From positions 3,658,001 to 3,722,000 of the forward strand of contig NZ_CP032819.1 of the NCBI RefSeq assembly GCF_003991565.1: a stretch of DNA of 64,000 nucleotides, read 5' to 3'. A program made the position numbers and the translations under genes. The stretch's first letter is position 1. The number at the start of each line of letters is the position of its first letter. This document shows, piece by piece, positions 9,627 to 33,602 of the stretch. The notes under the pieces are model-generated. The model had not been told where the DNA came from and did not search any database. It saw nothing but the letters and a program-made list of their open reading frames with translations. The stretch comes from Butyricimonas faecalis. Lineage in GTDB: Bacteria; Bacteroidota; Bacteroidia; Bacteroidales; Marinifilaceae.

Positions 9627-10295
9627 TCATTCCGTCCTGTCGTCTTCCCGTCTTTTCATTTTCAGTTCCCTGCCGGTTGCCGTGCGGCAGAGCGGCAGTT
9701 TCCCGGAAGCGGTTTGCTTGCATCCCTCGACGAGCCGTCCTTCGGACACCATTTTCCCGTACATTTCCCTGATATAACGGTATGCCGGGGAGGTGTTCGA
9801 ATAAACGGACTTCCCACGGAGTGTCTTGACACGCAGCTTTTCGACGAGTATTTCCAGCACCTGCTCCCGGCTCTTGTACAGGTTCCGGCGCTTGGTGCGG
9901 AAGGCGTCGAGAAAGACACCCCCGATAGTCATGTCATGAGTCTTGTGGTAATACGCGAGTTCTTCCTCCTCCGTCAGGTCGAGAATCTCGCCGTAAGTGT
10001 CAGTACGTAGGTACCGGAAGGTCGTTCCTTGTGCCAGAATCTTCTCGATAAGCTCCATGTGCTCTTTAAGAACAGGGCCCGATAACGATTGGGGATGACA
10101 GTACAGGCATGTCTTTCCGAGATACACCTCGGGACAACCGTCTTTGTATTTGTTTTCCTTGATGCTGAACCCTGTTTCCGTGAAAAGGCGCTTTACCTCG
10201 TCGAAGAAGCGTCCGGCTTTCTCTTCCGGCATGCGACCGCCGTCATAGCCGGACTCGACGCGGAAGTATGTGTCGATATATATCGGTGTGTCCAT
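9627..10295 (-). CDS. Hypothetical protein (222 aa)
   Basis: The product starts MDTPIYIDTYFRVESGYDGGR. It contains the segment EVYLGKTCLYCHPQSLSG (about residues 55-72), which may be a metal or substrate site because of its CxxC and following His. The C-terminal half is basic and helical (DAFRTKRRNLYKSREQVLEIL), which could bind nucleic acid. It lies 80 bp downstream of the recombinase gene but on the far side of a strong hairpin, so it may be transcribed separately. No family is recognised. Confidence 0.75.
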   Translation of the reverse strand: MDTPIYIDTYFRVESGYDGGRMPEEKAGRFFDEVKRLFTETGFSIKENKYKDGCPEVYLGKTCLYCHPQSLSGPVLKEHMELIEKILAQGTTFRYLRTDTYGEILDLTEEEELAYYHKTHDMTIGGVFLDAFRTKRRNLYKSREQVLEILVEKLRVKTLRGKSVYSNTSPAYRYIREMYGKMVSEGRLVEGCKQTASGKLPLCRTATGRELKMKRREDDRTE

Positions 10296-10331
10296 TTACA
10301 GTTCTGATTTTGATATGTTATATAAAGCATA

Positions 10332-10360
10332 GCCCGGAACCTCCCGCTCGGGTTCCGGGC
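10332..10360 (-). terminator. Hairpin terminator downstream of recombinase
   Basis: A perfect 10-bp inverted repeat (10332-10341 with 10351-10360, arm GCCCGGAACC) encloses a 9-nt loop. It lies just after the recombinase stop on the minus strand. The following bases (TATGCTTTATAT) are T-rich but not a pure T tract, so termination may be partial. Confidence 0.6.
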
Positions 10361-10376
10361 ATCGTTGAAAATATTC

Positions 10377-10967
10377 TCATAGACGTATGGAATCGAACAC
10401 TTTGTCGATGTCCTCCTGCGCCAGCCCGATGTAGCGCCGGGTGGTTTCCAGGTTGGAATGGCGGAATATCTGGTTGAGCAGGATCAGGCCCTCGGCCGAG
10501 CGTCCCATCAGCTCGTAGACATAGCGCCCGAAAGTCTTGCGGAAGGTATGTGTGGAGAATGCCCTGATCGGCAGCCTGTACCTTACCTTGAATACCTTGA
10601 GCAGCCTGTTGATGTATTCCAGCGAGTAAGGTTTCCCGGTACGCGGGCTGAGAAAGATGTACTGTTCGGGGGCGGGTTGTCCGAGCATCTCGTACAGGAA
10701 ACGGTTCTTCTCCTGCACGTCCCTGTTGAACTTGATCAGGCGGTTTTTCTTTGTTTTCTGCTCGATGCGGGTCATGGTGCTTTTTCCTAAGATGTCTTTC
10801 CAGCGCAGGGTCCTCACGTCGGAGGCCCTGCATGCCGTGCAGAACGACAGCCAGCAGTAGGTCTCCCACAGGTACTCGCCGTCCTTCTCAAGCCCGCGGA
10901 CCAGCCTGTTATATTCCGCTATGGGCAGGTAGTCGGCTGTCGTCAGTTGTCCCTTGATTCTTGTCAC
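10377..10967 (-). CDS. Tyrosine recombinase, catalytic domain only (196 aa)
   Basis: The protein shows the conserved active site of lambda-type integrases. The first Arg is in CTACRASDVRTLRW, the HxxR pair is in HTFRKTFGRYV, a later His is in IFRHSNLETT and the nucleophilic Tyr follows in TRRYIGLA. It lacks the N-terminal arm-binding and core-binding domains of a 350-400-residue integrase. No ATG is available in frame; translation probably begins at the GTG at 10967, preceded by AAAAGG at a good Shine-Dalgarno distance. It may resolve dimers, invert DNA or integrate with a partner protein. It sits inside the early operon rather than at a visible element end, so an attachment site cannot be placed. 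Confidence 0.85.
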   Translation of the reverse strand: MTRIKGQLTTADYLPIAEYNRLVRGLEKDGEYLWETYCWLSFCTACRASDVRTLRWKDILGKSTMTRIEQKTKKNRLIKFNRDVQEKNRFLYEMLGQPAPEQYIFLSPRTGKPYSLEYINRLLKVFKVRYRLPIRAFSTHTFRKTFGRYVYELMGRSAEGLILLNQIFRHSNLETTRRYIGLAQEDIDKVFDSIRL

Positions 10968-10978
10968 GTGGCAGCCTT

Positions 10979-11878
10979 TTAAGATTCCGGCAACCCTTCC
11001 GAGAGCATCAGCTCGGCCAGCGCCCCGTTCTGGGGAATCATGGCCGGAATGTCCGTACGTCCGGGCTTGTAGATTTCGGTTGCCACGTTATAGATATCCC
11101 ACGCCGTGAGCGTCTTCTTCTCTTCGGTGAGTTTGAGCAGGTCCTCGGTGAAGATGGAAATCTGGGACTGGTTCAGGGGATAGGTCTCCACCTTGGACGA
11201 AAGACGCTTGTCGGAACTGTCATGCGATACGCGCAATGCTGTCAGCAATCCGATGTAGGCGTACATCTCCACCGGGGTAATTACTTTCGCTTTCAGGCGG
11301 CGGATGCGTTCCCTGTCCTCGTTCATCTGTACCTCGAAGTTCGAGAGCCACTCGTCTACACGACCGAAAAGCTCTTCGGTGGTGACTTTGTCTTTCCCGT
11401 AGTTCGACACACTGCGTTCGGGGGAGAGGATGCACTGGTTGTGGCACACCCTGACGCACGGGCCGATGGCCGCCTGGATGCCGTCCTGATGGAAGGCGAT
11501 GACAAGCGTCGTGGTCAGCTCGTCCGTTTCCCATTCCTTAATGCGGATGGTCGTATAAACGCGGCGCAGGATATGCGCCTCGACGGCCATCGCCCCGTAC
11601 TTTTGTTCCACCTGGGGCAGGACGACCACGCCGGGCTGTGCCTTGTTCTTGTTCTGGGCGGCGAAGATTTCCTCCACCTCGTAATTCAGGTTGTGTTTCT
11701 GGCAGATGTCCGCCATGCGCTCTATCACCTCGTAATGGTAGATTCCCTTGAGCGGGTTGCCATAGATGTCATTTTCCTTGTGTGTGCGCCGGAGCGTGTC
11801 GAGCGTCATCACCTCGACGTTGTTGTTCTGGAAATCGAACTGCACGGGGGCGGCCGTTGTTGCTAATGCTGTTGCCAT
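10979..11878 (-). CDS. DUF932-like phage/plasmid protein (299 aa)
   Basis: The sequence layout resembles the DUF932 family of phage- and plasmid-borne proteins of about 300 residues. It has an N-terminal MATALATTAAPVQFDFQNNNV, a central block with RRVYTTIRIKEWETDE and AFHQDGIQAAIGPCVRVCHNQ, and a helical C-terminus ending in an EEKKTLTAWDIYNVATEI segment. Members of this group contain the CHNG/CxN turn followed by a helical bundle. No biochemical role is established as far as I know. It lies 11 bp upstream of the recombinase gene in the same direction. The assignment is from pattern memory. Confidence 0.7.
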   Translation of the reverse strand: MATALATTAAPVQFDFQNNNVEVMTLDTLRRTHKENDIYGNPLKGIYHYEVIERMADICQKHNLNYEVEEIFAAQNKNKAQPGVVVLPQVEQKYGAMAVEAHILRRVYTTIRIKEWETDELTTTLVIAFHQDGIQAAIGPCVRVCHNQCILSPERSVSNYGKDKVTTEELFGRVDEWLSNFEVQMNEDRERIRRLKAKVITPVEMYAYIGLLTALRVSHDSSDKRLSSKVETYPLNQSQISIFTEDLLKLTEEKKTLTAWDIYNVATEIYKPGRTDIPAMIPQNGALAELMLSEGLPES

Positions 11879-19585: not shown

Positions 19586-20674
19586 CTATTTCTTACGCCA
19601 TGCCGCCATCTTCTTTTTGATGTTGATATTGTTGTCCGCCAGCATTTTTTTCAGGACTGCCAGCAACCGCCAGCCTTCTCCGTTTTTATACTCTTCCGCC
19701 TTGGCTGACAGGAACGCCAGTGACTGGTACTTGTCCAGACGCCGACCCCGGTCATTGACAGCCGTGCAACTGTGGAAACGAATCAGGTTCTGCATGGTAA
19801 AGAACGCCCCGGCTCCCTTATAGGCATCCATCCATGCCTTGCTTTGAGGAGTGCCCCATGGCAGCCGGATACGACGGTCATTGAACTGTCTGACCGCGTT
19901 GTAAAGCTGTGTGGCGTCCAACGCGTGCCTGATGTGGGTTATCGCGATGGAAAGCGGGTAGTACAGTTTGGATTGCAGGTCCTCCACGAAAATATTACGG
20001 CCGTGTATACGCTTGTAGGGAACTCCCTTGCATTTTCTTGTTTCCAGGTTGCCCACGTGTTTTTTCAGCGCGTTGACATAGTCGCTCGCGATGGCCAAAA
20101 CCACATCACGGTTGAACCAGCGGTTTCTCTCGGCAAAACCCGTGATGTCCTTGTGTTCCATCTTCATCTGGGCGTGCAGCTCGTTCAAGAGCATTTTCCA
20201 CTGGTAATCATAGCCTTTCCGGTGAATCATCTCGGTCACCCCTGCCGGCTCTTTTTCACGGTAATGCGTGTATGACATCATATGGAACATTTGTGCCATG
20301 ACCCACCGGCGGAAGAGTCGGTTGTTGGGAACGGTACCCTGTGCCATGATGCTGCCGAATATCGGGTCGTTGTCATCCAGGATGGTAAGTTTCCCGTCTT
20401 TGTTGGAGGCGATATACTCGCCGCCCTCGGCTCCCTGCATGGCGAACAGGCAGCTCACGTCCACACCGGCACCGCGGAGTGCCTCGATACGCTCCCGCGC
20501 CCCTTTGGGAAGTCCGGCGGGAGAATTATGGCCGGCCACCACCGGATAGACGGTGCCCAAATCCGAATTCTTGCCGATAACGGTGCCCGTGGCGGCAAAT
20601 TCCTTGTCCGCGATGGCGAATTCCGTGCCGCATCCGGGGCACAGGACTTTTGTTTCTTGTTTCTTTCTGCTCAT
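19586..20674 (-). CDS. Zinc-ribbon protein between the array and its lone unit (362 aa)
   Basis: The N-terminus has CPGCGTEFAIADKEFAATG, a half ribbon of the type common in phage proteins. The middle contains NRLFRRWVMAQMFHMM and YDYQWKMLLNELHAQMKM, and the protein becomes helical and basic. The C-terminus (MLADNNINIKKKMAAWRKK) is strongly basic. No catalytic motif is seen. Its start overlaps the stop of the 20671-21150 gene as ATGA. Because it lies between the tandem array and the lone unit it may belong to the same functional group, but only position supports that. Confidence 0.75.
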   Translation of the reverse strand: MSRKKQETKVLCPGCGTEFAIADKEFAATGTVIGKNSDLGTVYPVVAGHNSPAGLPKGARERIEALRGAGVDVSCLFAMQGAEGGEYIASNKDGKLTILDDNDPIFGSIMAQGTVPNNRLFRRWVMAQMFHMMSYTHYREKEPAGVTEMIHRKGYDYQWKMLLNELHAQMKMEHKDITGFAERNRWFNRDVVLAIASDYVNALKKHVGNLETRKCKGVPYKRIHGRNIFVEDLQSKLYYPLSIAITHIRHALDATQLYNAVRQFNDRRIRLPWGTPQSKAWMDAYKGAGAFFTMQNLIRFHSCTAVNDRGRRLDKYQSLAFLSAKAEEYKNGEGWRLLAVLKKMLADNNINIKKKMAAWRKK

Positions 20675-21150
20675 TGTGAATTTGTTAATAGTTGATTACT
20701 TCCGGGTTCCACCCATTTTCTGAGTATCACCAGGTCCTTGTCTTTTTCGCTTTGCCAGAACCATTTGCCCATCGTTTCGGGATTCCATGTGAACCCGCCT
20801 ATAATCCGGCAGAGGATATAGAATTCCAGCTCGAATTGCGCGGTATCCCGGTGTTGCCCGTACAGCATGTCCCCGTCCTCGAGGTCACTTTCGGGCAATG
20901 CCATGAAATACCGGCGGGACTTGCTCTGGCTGCGCTCCGATGGTATCGAATGTTTATAGCGGCGGTACAGCTCCTCCACATCCGTGAAAAAATCCCCGCA
21001 GCCGTACTCCGGCAACCACGGAGCGCCATCATACCTGCCGTTCCGTATCATGTGTCTCCCGTTTACTTTTAAACTTCTGGACTGGAAATCAATCCGGAAA
21101 TTTGCGCCGTTCTCTATGGCGGTGACGGTTTCTCGGTAAATATCTTCCAT
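20671..21150 (-). CDS. Hypothetical protein directly after the RT array (159 aa)
   Basis: The product starts MEDIYRETVTAIENGANFRI. It contains RSLKVNGRHMIRNGRYDGAP with several basic residues, then VEELYRRYKHSIPSERSQSK, and later FELEFYILCRIIGGFTWNP. It is the first gene downstream of the array on the same strand. Its leader, 21 bases upstream of the ATG, contains the 12-base sequence TTTGAGTGCCAT, which also occurs immediately at the RT start codon. It is coupled to the next gene by ATGA. No family is recognised; a role with the RT is possible by position only. Confidence 0.75.
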   Translation of the reverse strand: MEDIYRETVTAIENGANFRIDFQSRSLKVNGRHMIRNGRYDGAPWLPEYGCGDFFTDVEELYRRYKHSIPSERSQSKSRRYFMALPESDLEDGDMLYGQHRDTAQFELEFYILCRIIGGFTWNPETMGKWFWQSEKDKDLVILRKWVEPGSNQLLTNSQ

Positions 21151-21171
21151 TTTCTCACCTGTTTACAATTA

Positions 21172-21183
21172 ATGGCACTCAAA
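21172..21183. repeat. 12-bp direct repeat, distal copy
   Basis: ATGGCACTCAAA occurs here, just beyond the last array unit, and again at 23283-23294, exactly across the RT start codon. The pair therefore brackets the RT plus array. It could be a trace of cassette insertion or a shared regulatory or translation signal; chance is also possible at this length. Confidence 0.5.
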
Positions 21184-21197
21184 CCCCTGGCGCGTAT

Positions 21198-21347
21198 CTT
21201 TATAGTCCTGATAAATACAGTAGGACTTCGGTCCTGAACCAGGTAGTAGCCTGGCTCAGGACCAAGCTTGAATACTGTATCTTGAATTTGGGTCCCTCGT
21301 GCATATGCGGTCGCGCTACCCTTCTGTTCAGGGGGGCTCATCCGGAC
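21198..21347 (-). repeat. Array unit A (last in the transcript)
   Basis: The box CTTTA lies at 21198-21202 and CTGATAA follows. The outer stem ATACAGTA pairs 21215-21222 with 21273-21280. The inner stem GGTCCTG pairs 21230-21236 with 21257-21263, topped by CCAGG/CCTGG around the loop TAGTAG. TTGAATTT follows the outer stem. This unit is the most diverged in its leading box (GGCGC instead of GGCAC) and in its loop. Confidence 0.85.
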
Positions 21348-21519
21348 GGCACATCCCTTTAAAAACCTGATACGGGCCGCGAGTACGGCTGGCCCCTGTG
21401 TCATCTGTCGTGTTAGCAGGAGATGACAAAGGTTCCAGCCGCGTAAATCGCGGCTCTGTTGAAATCCCGGCCTTGCCCCCTTTGTCCTGTGCTGTTCTTT
21501 TTGCGGTTCCCGGAATGCC
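21348..21519 (-). repeat. Array unit B
   Basis: GGCAC at 21348 and CTTTA at 21357-21361 lead into TGATACG. Nested stems are GCCGCGA 21376-21382 with 21448-21454, GGCTGG with CCAGCC, and TGTCATCT 21399-21406 with 21421-21428. The apical loop 21407-21420 contains GTTAG at 21412-21416. GTTGAAAT follows the hairpin. Confidence 0.85.
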
Positions 21520-21692
21520 GGCACGTTCCTTTACAGGTCCGATGTCTGCTGTGGCGGAAGCCGGAATGGCGCCGTCGTATAACGTTAGGGATACGACGGC
21601 GCGAGACGGGCTTATCGGGGACAGCAGGCTGAATCCATTCCCCCGAACCGCACGTTCCCGTGCTGGAAAAGACTGAAAGTTCTCATAATACC
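21520..21692 (-). repeat. Array unit C
   Basis: GGCAC at 21520 and CTTTA at 21529-21533 lead into CGATGTC. The outer stem is CTGCTGT 21546-21552 with 21621-21627. The inner stem is a perfect 12-bp arm, GCGCCGTCGTAT 21569-21580 with 21591-21602, closing a 10-nt loop that contains GTTAG at 21584-21588. GCTGAATCC follows. Confidence 0.85.
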
Positions 21693-21860
21693 GGCACATG
21701 GCTTTATGCTTCCGATGTATCCCGCGTATGGGTCTTCTGCGGAGTCCGAAGGCGACGGTCAGCCGCCTTCAGACTCGGAAAGAAGACGTTGGTACGCGGG
21801 ATGCCCAAACCTATTCCTTGAACTTTCCCGGTGTGCTCCGGTAACGGGTGCGGGACAGAC
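21693..21860 (-). repeat. Array unit D
   Basis: GGCAC at 21693 and CTTTA at 21702-21706 lead into CGATGTA. The outer stem ATCCCGCGTA is perfect over 10 bp (21719-21728 with 21793-21802). Inner stems are GTCTTCT with AGAAGAC and GAAGGCG 21748-21754 with 21764-21770. The loop is ACGGTCAGC, a variant of the GTTAG loop. The TTGAA motif lies further from the stem than in the other units. Confidence 0.85.
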
Positions 21861-22021
21861 GGCACATGACTTTAATTTCCCGATACATTACAGGCGCAGC
21901 CAGAATCGAGATGGGATTAACCGGGTGTTAGACCGGTTAATCTCGATATGGATTCTGGTTATAAGCCTGTAACGTTGAATAGCCTGCCCGTCCACCCGTT
22001 CTGCCGTGTGCCCGGCGTAAC
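21861..22021 (-). repeat. Array unit E (first after the RT)
   Basis: GGCAC at 21861 and CTTTA at 21870-21874 lead into CGATACA. Nested stems are TTACAGGC 21888-21895 with 21965-21972, CCAGAATC 21900-21907 with 21951-21958, and ATTAACCGG 21916-21924 with 21933-21941. The 8-nt apical loop contains GTTAG at 21927-21931. GTTGAATAGCC follows, and then about 45 bp that run directly into the RT stop codon. Confidence 0.88.
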
Positions 22022-23284
22022 TTATAGCGATGCCACCAGCGTGTTGTACACCGCCCGGCTGGTCAGAAGGGCGTTACGCATGCAGCCGACAGTCAGGTAA
22101 CCCGGTATGTCCCGGTCTGTTTTATCGCGGTTGGCCTTCACGTTGCGTCCCCGTCCCCGGACGATGCAGCCATCCGGTTTGGTTCGGACATATCCCAGAC
22201 CGCCGATCTTGCACCTGCCCGTCTGAATGGCTCTAAAGCAGTCCATCACGAACTTGTTCAGCTCGTTGAGGTCACTCTTCACATTACAGACCGGCAATAC
22301 CTGTATCGCCCAGCTGAACTCGCCCTTGTACAGGTAACGGTTCACGGCGTCCACGGCTTTTGCCAGTGTCGTGTCCCGGCAGCGGATTGTCCGCCGCTCG
22401 ATCTCGTGCTGGAAGGTCTTGATGCGTGATGACGAGAGCGAGACCATGCCGCCCTTGATACTGAATCCTAAGAACTTGAACCAGACATCGGCTGCCAGGT
22501 ATTCCACTTTCTTGGGATTTAGCTTCATGGATTTATCTTCCAGGCGTTTTTGGAGTGTGTCCATCGCTTTTTCATAATCCTTGCCGATAAAAAGCATATC
22601 GTCGGAATACCGGACGTAGTAGCCGTTCATTTGTGACAGTTCCCTGTCTAGGTCGTAGAGCAGTACATCCGCCAGCCAGCTAGCCACAGCACAACCCTGT
22701 TTCAAGGATTGATACTTGCTTTGCAACCGGTTATCTTCATCGAAATAGAGGTCCGAGTGGTAATATTTCCTAAGTACGTCTATCAGGGCAGACTGGCCGT
22801 GTTTGGCCTCCACCTTGTCGAACGCCTCGTCGATGAACCGTATCGGAACACTGTCGAAGTATTTGGAAAGGTCGGACTTCCAGCCCAGACAGCCGCTATT
22901 GCCGGTTTCTGTCATCCGGTGGCTGACTTCCGTAACTACCTTGCCGCACCCTATACCGGTCTGGTAGGACTTGCACGAAGAGTGCAGCATCTCCGGCATC
23001 AACTCGAAGAGCAGGTCGTTGGCGATACCCAGTACTACGCGGTCCATCGGCTCGTTTACGTACACTGTGCGGAACTCACCGTTGTCCTTGGGTATCTGCG
23101 CCGTGTGGGGAGGGGAAATCTCGTACTTTCCCCGTCGCATGGCATAGGCCATCGCCATACGGGTATGCTCGTCGGTCAGCCGAATAAGTTGGTCTTTCCT
23201 AATGTCTTTCAGCACGCCTTTCTCAATGGCCTTCGTCCACCGGCCTATGTCGAAGAACATTTGCAATATCTTGTCTTCATTCAT
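22022..23284 (-). CDS. Reverse transcriptase of an unassigned group (420 aa)
   Basis: The ATG at 23284 (MNEDKILQMFFDIGRW) is the start; the preceding in-frame TTG is less likely. The usual RT blocks are in order: IPKDNGEFRTVYV at 64-76, KSDLSKYFDSVP with catalytic Asp138, QGCAVAS at 196-202 (motif B), YSDD at 226-229 with catalytic Asp228 and Asp229, LNPKKVEYL (motif D), and FKFLGFSI at 269-276 (motif E). A C-terminal domain of about 140 residues follows, ending basic (VRGRGRNVKANRDKTDRD). There is no HNH or maturase part as in group II intron proteins. The DGR hallmark in motif B and the retron NAxxH and VTG signatures are not seen. The start overlaps the upstream gene by 8 bp. The hairpin array begins directly at its stop, so array RNA and RT message are probably one transcript. 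Confidence 0.93.
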   Translation of the reverse strand: MNEDKILQMFFDIGRWTKAIEKGVLKDIRKDQLIRLTDEHTRMAMAYAMRRGKYEISPPHTAQIPKDNGEFRTVYVNEPMDRVVLGIANDLLFELMPEMLHSSCKSYQTGIGCGKVVTEVSHRMTETGNSGCLGWKSDLSKYFDSVPIRFIDEAFDKVEAKHGQSALIDVLRKYYHSDLYFDEDNRLQSKYQSLKQGCAVASWLADVLLYDLDRELSQMNGYYVRYSDDMLFIGKDYEKAMDTLQKRLEDKSMKLNPKKVEYLAADVWFKFLGFSIKGGMVSLSSSRIKTFQHEIERRTIRCRDTTLAKAVDAVNRYLYKGEFSWAIQVLPVCNVKSDLNELNKFVMDCFRAIQTGRCKIGGLGYVRTKPDGCIVRGRGRNVKANRDKTDRDIPGYLTVGCMRNALLTSRAVYNTLVASL

Positions 23285-23945
23285 GGCACTCAAAACTTTT
23301 TTGGGAAAGGATAAAATTCAGTATGTCCATGCCGGATTCTACGTCACATTCCTGCTCGTACTCCTCGCCCGTGTAGTAACTGTAACCCATGATGAAGATT
23401 TTCCCGTCTTTCCGGAGCGACGCGTTCGTGATGACCAGTTCCACGGGGTCACGGTCCACAACATGGAGATAGGTCGAGGATTGTTCACCGTTGTCATCAA
23501 GGCTGCCGCCACACTCGGAAAGCAGCTTCACGGACAGGGCGTAACATTTTTCATTCAGGGCTTTCTCCGCCACGTGATGGTTGTTCATCTCTTCCGTAAG
23601 TGTTCGGATGCGGTCACCGCGTCTCTGCTCGGGAACCGGTTCGAAAGCGGTTTCGAACATCCAGACAGGCATCCATTTATGGAAGACGGCGGGTCCCAAG
23701 CGGCATATGTAAACTTCATCGTTCTCTTTCTCCGTCTCCGGGATATCCATTCCCGAGGCTCGTGCTGCCGCTACGCTCATGCGCTCGAAACCGCCGAGGC
23801 AGGAAGGTGCCGACTTCAAACGGTAGGGACGGATGTTTCCTACAGGGACACCCATTGACATAAGTAGCATCCCCTTAAAAGTGTCGGTAACGGGAGTGGT
23901 TTGCTGTTTGTTCATTCTTTTATTCATTTTCTGGTCTTTGTACAT
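23277..23945 (-). CDS. Hypothetical protein upstream of the RT (222 aa)
   Basis: Three ATGs are possible at the 5' end (23945, 23927, 23915); the first is used here. The N-terminus is basic (MYKDQKMNKRMNKQQ). The central part contains VYICRLGPAVFHKWMPVW and the C-terminal part KIFIMGYSYYTGEEYEQ. The stop lies 8 bp inside the RT gene, so the RT is probably translated by coupling to this gene. No family is recognised. Whether it belongs functionally with the RT is unknown. Confidence 0.75.
   Translation of the reverse strand: MYKDQKMNKRMNKQQTTPVTDTFKGMLLMSMGVPVGNIRPYRLKSAPSCLGGFERMSVAAARASGMDIPETEKENDEVYICRLGPAVFHKWMPVWMFETAFEPVPEQRRGDRIRTLTEEMNNHHVAEKALNEKCYALSVKLLSECGGSLDDNGEQSSTYLHVVDRDPVELVITNASLRKDGKIFIMGYSYYTGEEYEQECDVESGMDILNFILSQKSFECHE
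23283..23294. repeat. 12-bp direct repeat, RT-start copy
   Basis: This is the second copy of ATGGCACTCAAA; on the minus strand it reads TTTGAGTGCCAT, with its AT overlapping the RT ATG. Its partner lies at 21172-21183, just past the array. Confidence 0.5.
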
Positions 23946-31916: not shown

Positions 31917-33602
31917 CGTAACTTTGTCGCACTTAAAACGTACCCCATAGCAGAGCTATCCAAATGAGCGCATTTTCGGCATATCGTATCTTTGCACGAG
32001 TTCTACTCATCGTGTCGTGGCTCTGCGCTGCTTTACTCCAATTTCGGCAAGACGCTTCTCTGGCACGTTCCGGATCTTTTCCAATCCGGCAGCTAACAGT
32101 AAGGCGGTGGGCGGCTGGTGATTATGGGCATAACATTGGCAATGCTCTTTTCTCAAGCTCCGTGCGGACTGTTTTTCCGCTACCGTGCATTTTATCTCCG
32201 TGCGCACAAGGGCGCAATTATGGCATTATTCTTGCACGTCCTTTTCAGTGGCGGTATTCTCAATACTCCCAGCGACTTGCAAAAGTCTTGACGTATTTCC
32301 GGCACTCGGAATAAATACGATTTATCCCGTTCCATAAATTTCCCTACTTTCGTAGGTTGGCAATACTGGTATTATTGCCCCGTGCGAAGCGTGGTTATTT
32401 AACGCACTCTTTAAGCGTACCTAAACGCACACGGTGTTGTTTCGGGTGTTACCCTTTGACGGCTCAACAACTCACTTTCGTGTAAACGCCGTTTTTGTTT
32501 CTCGCTCTCGGCGGTCTTTGCTTTTCTGTTTTTTAATTCTGTTTTTTACTATCTATTTTTTTATTCGTTTTTCTCCGTACTTGTTTGCCGTTTGTTTGGC
32601 TTTCGAGTACATGACTATTATAAAACCGTTTTTCAGAACTGCAAAACTTTTTGAGAAAAAAAATTTGGAACGTTCCAAAAACAGCCTTTTTGCGAATATG
32701 GAACGCACGCGCGCGAAGTAAATTTGTAAATAGCTGAATATCAATAAAATAGAAAAATGATTTTCTTTGAAAAAAATTTTTCCTTTGCAAAAATCAAAAA
32801 AGCCCCGTTTCAACGTATGTATAAAATCAAAATCAGTTTTGTCTATTGATTATCAGATTATTAGCTGCTTAAAATGGATAAAATAGGACTGAAAAGATTT
32901 TTTTACTTTCAATTTGTAAGCAAAGATAATGTAAAAGACGTTTTTAGGCTTACTTTATACAAAAGTAAACCTAATAAATTATTGATATTCAATGGTGTAA
33001 TAAAAATAAAAAGATTAGGGAGGGTGTACCCTCGGGTGCGGATTCGGTCTCTGTCCTCGGGCCGTTTTTTCAAGTCCGGTTTTCCAAAATGGCTCAAAAT
33101 GCGGCTTTCGGATTGAAACTGTAAGCAGGTATCAAAAAATATACAGTAAAGTACTTGTATTTATCATGGTTGCTTAAGGTGCTGGTGTTCACCATGTCCC
33201 ATATTTTTGAAATATTCTCATTTGTGGATGCCTGTCCTTTCAATTTTCACGGGTGTACAGACTTTCTGCACGATTTCCGGGTTCCGGCTTGAAGTTGTTT
33301 TTTAGATACGCTGAAAACGCATCAAAAAATATATAGAGACACGTCGGTATATTGACTGTTCTTAACCGGATTGGACGACGGAAAAGGAGGATGTGTATTC
33401 CTGTCATTCAGTATGTTCGGATATGCTTTTCACAATCGGACAATCTTGTAATGTTTTGTTCCTTAATCATATAGAATATACAGAACGAAGCTATCCACAT
33501 GGATTCCGACTTATTTGTACGGTTTTTGTGACTTTATACAGGAAACCGTGGAAATGCAGAAGAAATGGGGTTCAGTCACCTGCCTTTTTGGTGAATTATA
33601 CG
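31917..33602. other. Large AT-rich non-coding region
   Basis: No open frame here has convincing composition; the longest ones are hydrophobic or Phe/Lys-rich artefacts of AT-rich DNA. TAnnTTTG-like promoter boxes occur at 31919 and 31986 (plus strand). AT content peaks at 32500-33000. The 13-base sequence ATCAAAAAATATA occurs twice, near 33137 and 33322. The region separates divergent gene blocks, so it may hold early promoters, a replication origin or a non-coding transcript. None of these can be confirmed by eye. Confidence 0.5.

Follow-up and report, generated by a model that had tools for sequence, protein, structure and literature searches.

The locus analysed here, in a 64,000-nucleotide stretch of the Butyricimonas faecalis genome (hereafter the window), raises the question of which RNA a reverse transcriptase (RT) of the UG27 clade works with, and what it makes of it. 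In the window, the RT gene, a non-coding array of five pseudoknot-hairpin units and the genes of RTas346 and RTas337, two catalogued UG27-associated proteins, follow one another on one strand (Table 1), and this operon lies in a predicted prophage. The reading that we favour, with a probability of roughly 0.42, is that the RT binds a scaffold in the array RNA and copies the unlike hairpins of the array into different short DNAs. The gene order, the fold of the units, their recurrence beside related RTs, a bias towards the RNA strand, the non-redundancy of the hairpins and the replacement of single hairpins can all be read from the sequence itself.

An earlier note on this DNA had described an RT of 420 residues with a YSDD motif, followed by a non-coding array of five hairpin units reaching up to the next gene, and the coordinates, the RVT_1 domain and a strict-rule scan bear this out. 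The array is sound, and is more widespread and more intricate than first noted. It fills the 871 nt from the RT stop to the start codon of RTas346 (21150). Under a strict rule combining hairpin, box and pairing, it contains exactly five units of about 170 nt, whose boxes begin at 21884, 21716, 21543, 21371 and 21212 (minus strand; spacings of 168, 173, 172 and 159); the same rule gave no match in one single-base-shuffled window, scanned on one strand. The minimum free energy of the array (21180-22024) was -353.8 kcal/mol, whereas 20 dinucleotide shuffles gave -280.7 ± 6.8 kcal/mol (z -10.7).

Table 1. Features of the window, in window positions (SL1 loops in square brackets; pLDDT, predicted local distance difference test).
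Feature	Position	Strand	Basis or details
UG27 reverse transcriptase, 420 aa	22022..23284	minus	RVT_1, PADLOC RT_UG27
Non-coding array, five pseudoknot-hairpin units	21151..22021	minus	Fold energy and structural rule
Unit 1	21862..22016	minus	SL1 22003-22016 GCCG[GGCACA]CGGC; SL2 21885-21975, 32 bp; box 21870-21884; pseudoknot 3' strand 21862-21866 TGTGC
Unit 2	21694..21841	minus	SL1 21828-21841 CCGG[AGCACA]CCGG; SL2 21719-21802, 32 bp; box 21702-21716; pseudoknot 3' strand 21694-21698 TGTGC
Unit 3	21521..21668	minus	SL1 21655-21668 TTCC[AGCACG]GGAA; SL2 21546-21627, 28 bp; box 21529-21543; pseudoknot 3' strand 21521-21525 CGTGC
Unit 4	21349..21494	minus	Weak SL1 21487-21494, 1 bp; SL2 21372-21459, 31 bp; box 21357-21371; pseudoknot 3' strand 21349-21353 TGTGC
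Unit 5	21190..21320	minus	SL1 21309-21320 GGT[AGCGCG]ACC; SL2 21213-21282, 28 bp; box 21198-21212; pseudoknot 3' strand 21190-21194 CGCGC
RTas346, 159 aa, partner protein	20671..21150	minus	PADLOC E 3e-68; AlphaFold2 pLDDT 87
RTas337, 362 aa, partner protein, N-terminal CPxC motif	19586..20674	minus	PADLOC E 4.2e-155; AlphaFold2 pLDDT 84
Rfam Bacteroidales-2 RNA (RF02943)	32063-32499	plus	346 bits, cut-off 204

Each unit consists, from 5' to 3', of a small stem-loop (SL1) with a stem of mostly 3-5 bp and a loop of 6 nt, a linker that has TTYAA at its 3' end and often also AAGG, a long hairpin (SL2; median span of 84 nt across 243 distinct hairpins), a box of the form ATCR-N-TAAAG whose internal spacer is not conserved, and, mostly 3 nt past the box, a 5-nt stretch that can pair with the final 5 nt of the SL1 loop. 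As this pairing bridges SL2, the unit is predicted to form a pseudoknot. The period, the boxes and the hairpins had been described correctly, but the SL1-loop/box pseudoknot had been overlooked. No lone unit, as claimed elsewhere in the window, was found; the two other matches of the strict-rule scan (plus strand, 20944 and 62430) have no fixed pairing place and look like chance.

The same fold was found among relatives. Candidate units (n = 344) were box-matrix matches in 77 distinct non-empty gaps after the RT, the matrix having been built from 17 boxes of those same gaps. A hairpin of at least 16 bp was present in 311 of them, with a median of 29 pairs compared with 15 in shuffles, and 89% of the units had at least 18 bp compared with 38% of the shuffles. 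The two arms of SL2 vary together: with its own partner an arm forms a duplex of -41 to -42 kcal/mol, compared with -15.2 for unrelated arms, and cross-locus duplexes reached -21.6 kcal/mol where the arms were 65-75% similar and -32.7 kcal/mol where they were 75-85% similar.

For the pairing of the SL1 loop, hairpins ending near a box were collected and repeats dropped, giving 254 contexts, 232 of which had a TA.AG core and enough upstream sequence. A perfect 5-bp match was found in 203 of these 232 units (63 arrays), mostly at one place, compared with a mean of 51.9 and a maximum of 65 in 200 permutations. A stem of at least 3 bp flanks the match in 181 of 202 units, compared with a mean of 69.7 and a maximum of 90 after permutation; 156 of these 181 have a loop of the form 1+5 nt. 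The 5-bp codes vary widely (GCACA/TGTGC, ACACA/TGTGT, ACGCA/TGCGT, GTATG/CATAC, ATGCG/CGCAT and others), and L015-L017 carry five different codes across the five units of each array. In 12 orthologous last units, at the position of window unit 5, 97.8% of the cells are paired, compared with 14-50% in slid versions; their covariation score was reached by none of 500 shuffles, with changes on both sides in 6 of 15 pairs, and, because related sequences are not independent, these pairing figures overstate the number of separate events. An artefact is unlikely, given the slid versions and the many codes. The predicted SL1-loop/box pseudoknot is a covarying pattern across the arrays.

Structured units recur beside related RTs. 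In the first scan, at least two boxes were present in 65 of the 77 gaps, one in 6 and none in 6, and the gaps held 359 box matches compared with 41 in single-base shuffles. An RT-blind box scan of viral contigs, which returned 38 stretches, agrees: all 25 stretches with at least two units carry module genes (the RT in 22; RTas346/337 only in L150, L167 and L178), and the 13 stretches without module genes comprise 12 with zero units and 1 with a single match. The viral-contig loci were a set of 20 and then the best 80 of 111, the second set repeating contigs of the first. Sixteen further loci came from named Bacteroidales genera and metagenome-assembled genomes (Phocaeicola, Bacteroides, Alistipes, Butyricimonas, Heminiphilus, Muribaculaceae). 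Among sampled species genomes, relatives were found in 3 of 56 of the family, 3 of 393 of the order and 1 of 395 of the phylum, the window genome being included each time, and the protein cluster closest to the window RT has 2180 member sequences. The isolated phage BS-TP1 (L130, PQ571274.1, host Bacteroides salyersiae) carries the whole module, with RTas346, RTas337 and at least five units in the 1349-nt gap after its RT; this UG27 RT, at 9995-11257, is annotated as 'tail protein'.

The arrays of relatives hold one to eight units. The earliest-splitting RT rows (L039, L121, L122, L125-L127) have 0-1 unit after the RT, and the next clade is mixed, with one unit in L115 and L119, two in L108 and L111, three in L109 and up to seven matches in the 3-kb gap of L113. 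The fused-RT clade has 0-4 units ahead of RTas337, compared with 4-8 in most of the other nested clades. These counts suggest that arrays grew from a single unit, a suggestion and not more, because the RT tree is midpoint-rooted and leaves several of its deep forks unresolved. L120, which has units between the RT and RTas346, carries three more as a second array beyond RTas337, 3.2-3.6 kb from the RT on its 3' side.

Both partners are present in 118 of 125 fetched RT loci (some contigs were fetched twice). The RT and RTas346 form a single reading frame in 11 loci (L092, L094-L096, L098-L102, L105 and L106), L100 and L101 having identical gap sequences, and the two proteins therefore likely work together. 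RTas346 and RTas337 precede the RT in L089, which shows that the gene order of the module is not fixed. The N-terminus of RTas337 is zinc-ribbon-like (CPxC), 18 residues matching a LysW-type carrier (E 0.006), and the AlphaFold2 model beyond it is mostly helical with no named fold.

These arrangements bear on whether the array is simply a part of the messenger RNA, that is, a structured spacer setting the stoichiometry or stability of RTas346/RTas337 relative to the RT, without a product of its own. Its position within a run of co-directed genes would suit such a role. However, a relaxed scan also placed units 3' of RTas337, in L102 (about seven), L096 (two before and six after), L117 (one; same contig as L039) and L121, and loci with the fused RT-RTas346 still retain units, which makes a spacer function quite improbable.

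The strand on which selection acts was read from the SL2 stems. At single sites with two Watson-Crick pairs on either side, 69 G.U and 22 A.C were counted on the RT strand; the antisense fold, whose bias runs to the opposite, still gave 55 versus 27 (two-sided binomial p 8e-7 for sense and 0.003 for antisense, sites taken as independent). The excess of G.U over A.C points to selection on the RNA that is transcribed with the RT.

Such selection would also be expected if the units, cut from the transcript, acted as RNAs, either inhibiting the RT or its partners in the manner of antitoxins or serving as decoys for host defence proteins, hairpin complementary DNA (cDNA) being unneeded. Tandem pseudoknot repeats act as RNAs in type III toxin-antitoxin systems, and the tandem pseudoknots, constant scaffold and free stems of the present array resemble this layout. 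We regard it as an unlikely explanation: the YSDD active site of the RT does not vary among the 15 aligned rows, no toxin nuclease family was found among the six neighbour genes scanned with Pfam, and an inhibitor would favour units that are alike, whereas the hairpins are all unlike.

The latter point comes from comparing the 243 distinct SL2s of 64 arrays with blastn at E 1e-4. None of 486 within-array pairs was similar, compared with 227 similar pairs between arrays. Replaced hairpins were also sought in 45 locus pairs whose RTs are more than 80% identical. In 7 pairs, forming four groups, one or two hairpins are far more changed than the rest, the RT and partners being above 85%. In L079/L080 the hairpin of unit 4 is 65% alike, against 100% identity for the remaining five hairpins and for the genes; the other groups are L085/L123, L065/L066 and L008/L009/L021. 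The remaining 38 pairs, many near-identical, had no outlier hairpin by the replacement rule. In the replaced hairpins the new inner stems are again self-complementary, the linker and box are largely kept, and the outer stem is kept in several cases. The inner third fell below 60% with linker and box above 80% in 11 of 219 orthologous unit pairs. Unit 4 is the array unit that differs between the window and a second copy in the same genome. The array of L053/L055 is 97% identical to that of the window with an RT 78% identical in DNA, so that one array can go with different RTs. In L005, unit 3 has an 8-nt tandem duplication at the hairpin tip in an otherwise nearly identical array.

The clade of the RT indicates what such an enzyme may do with this RNA. 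The RT frame runs from an ATG at 23284 to the stop at 22022 on the minus strand (an alternative TTG start at 23293 would give 423 aa), its RVT_1 domain has an E of 2.7e-20 in Pfam, and YSDD is intact. The PADLOC profile RT_UG27 matches residues 2-420 of 420 (E 3.5e-231, 765 bits), followed by RT_UG26 (1.7e-36), a general RT model (1.4e-25), UG17 (4.2e-24) and Drt9 (7.4e-24). By this match the window RT belongs to the catalogued UG27 clade of UG/DRT RTs, and the reading of the earlier note, which knew of no description of such a system, is to that extent not borne out; no RNA was found described for UG27. Both partners also match their PADLOC models over nearly full length, and these UG27 profiles carry no RNA information, whereas the module in the window has an array.

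That the system is neither a retron nor a group II intron, as had been claimed, agrees with profile scores far under the cut-offs. The top retron profile gave 39 bits versus 765 for UG27 (among the 25 matches listed), the retron St85 model 40.3 bits (cut-off 235) and the group II intron maturase 93.5 bits (cut-off 300). In the Rfam scan of the window, Bacteroidales-2 was the sole match at gathering score, and no group II intron RNA was found. Retron RNA has an msr-msd layout; retrons share with the present system an RT and a structured RNA with a long hairpin, but the UG27 array has many pseudoknot units and its RT lies far from the retron profiles. Diversity-generating retroelements have a template/variable repeat pair with adenine-specific changes; the differences between the unit 4 of the two genome copies, the one pair compared, are of mixed kinds, and no search for such a repeat pair was made over the whole window. 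Two further RT-like genes of the same genome (L003 and L004; G000:C1:1186321-1186998 and 2303323-2304000) have identical scores and are 26% identical to the UG27 RT across its residues 49-279. At the UG26 RT loci L139, L143 and L146, a stable fold lies immediately 5' of the RT frame and is a possible non-coding RNA (ncRNA) of that group.

The proposal that the RT binds the scaffold and copies SL2 stems from UG systems with nearby RT scores (DRT10 and DRT9, and more distantly DRT2), which copy an ncRNA. UG17 is the DRT10 group, and the RTs of DRT10 and DRT9 (UG28) copy ncRNA (PMC12632851, PMC12483538); each is described there with a single ncRNA, compared with the multi-unit array of UG27. In our proposal, the RT and RTas346 would form one complex, as the fusions suggest, and this complex would hold the constant scaffold of pseudoknot, linker and box. 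The SL1-loop/box pseudoknot would be the recognition element and set the start of synthesis, the variable SL2 would be the template, and each unit would yield its own DNA hairpin. RTas337 might serve as effector or carrier. The DNA hairpins may serve in competition between phages or counter host defence, the phage role being the least certain step.

A different use of the RNA is suggested by these same relatives. As in DRT2, DRT9 or DRT10, a short single-stranded stretch, in the linker or the box, could template repetitive DNA, the pseudoknot marking its edge, SL2 being a structural tower and extra units raising the dose. The near profiles include UG17 (DRT10) and Drt9; the template region is the least conserved part of the pseudoknotted ncRNA beside the DRT2 (UG2) RT (PMC12039810), and DRT10 makes tandem-repeat cDNA (PMC12632851). 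The box spacer is not conserved, however, and SL2s that all differ within arrays would be needless for a mere tower. The edges of SL2 have no excess direct repeat (common substring of 4.15 versus 4.16 permuted, 214 units), so that a template jump of the DRT2/DRT10 type is not indicated there, although the template place could lie elsewhere. On balance we find this explanation unlikely.

Several observations weigh against the copying of SL2 into separate DNA hairpins, among them this absence of flanking repeats. The mean identity of SL2 falls only from 87% in the outer third to 82% in the inner third (219 orthologous unit pairs), a small drop. Unit 4 of the window is 97.6% like that of L053 and unit 4 of the sister copy 97.6% like that of L055, and the hairpin swaps may be explained by plain recombination with relatives. 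No convincing outside target of the hairpin sequences was found. The SL1 of window unit 4 is nearly absent (1 bp), the count of further pair types in the orthologous last units was no better than in shuffles (343 of 500), and L125-L127 have no convincing unit even in the relaxed scan. Over 2.9 Mb, a looser unit rule gave 470 matches at array positions and 48 outside; of the latter, 12 belong to real arrays in L129, L130 and L120, and a further 11 represent a single site shared by near-identical elements.

Taken further, the copying of SL2 would define a new class of phage retroelement in which an RT reads a swappable, addressable and non-redundant hairpin library, with one hairpin in each pseudoknot cassette, into a corresponding set of DNA hairpins used against rival phages or host defences, with growth from a single-cassette ancestor to up to eight cassettes; we put this forward tentatively, as a doubtful extension. 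The UG27 clade, its protein partners and a pseudoknotted ncRNA beside a UG RT are already known, and what is distinct here is an array of unlike, swappable cassettes. DRT2 has one 280-nt ncRNA with flanking ACA repeats (PMC12039810), compared with one to eight units, unlike hairpins and no flanking repeat found in the UG27 array. An RNA 3' of an RT has a precedent: DRT3 (UG3 and UG8) has an ncRNA downstream of an RT gene (PMC13174585), and differs from the present system by two RTs, one ncRNA and poly-dinucleotide products. No published account of a UG27-linked array, and no functional account of UG27, was found in the literature searched, and we propose the array as the missing RNA of this widespread RT clade. 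Should the hairpins be copied, a single operon would yield several defined DNA hairpins, which would matter for phage-host conflict and be of interest as a tool for writing DNA. The fold of the unit is precise enough for direct testing, and the natural single-unit relatives and RT-RTas346 fusions offer simple starting systems.

The operon had been described as a phage early operon, the phage part of which fits the genes of the window. The right half of the window contains genes for a Mu-type portal, a ClpP-like head protease, a sheath, a tape measure and a baseplate hub, and a KilA-N/antirepressor gene is also present; considering these genes, the window is a predicted prophage. A second related element in the same genome shares 14.9 kb at an identity of 99.6% and a further 2.5 kb at 97% (19 kb compared). 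The prophage genes fall into two halves, with the Bacteroidales-2 RNA between them, close to the point where the second genome copy starts to diverge within the stretch retrieved.
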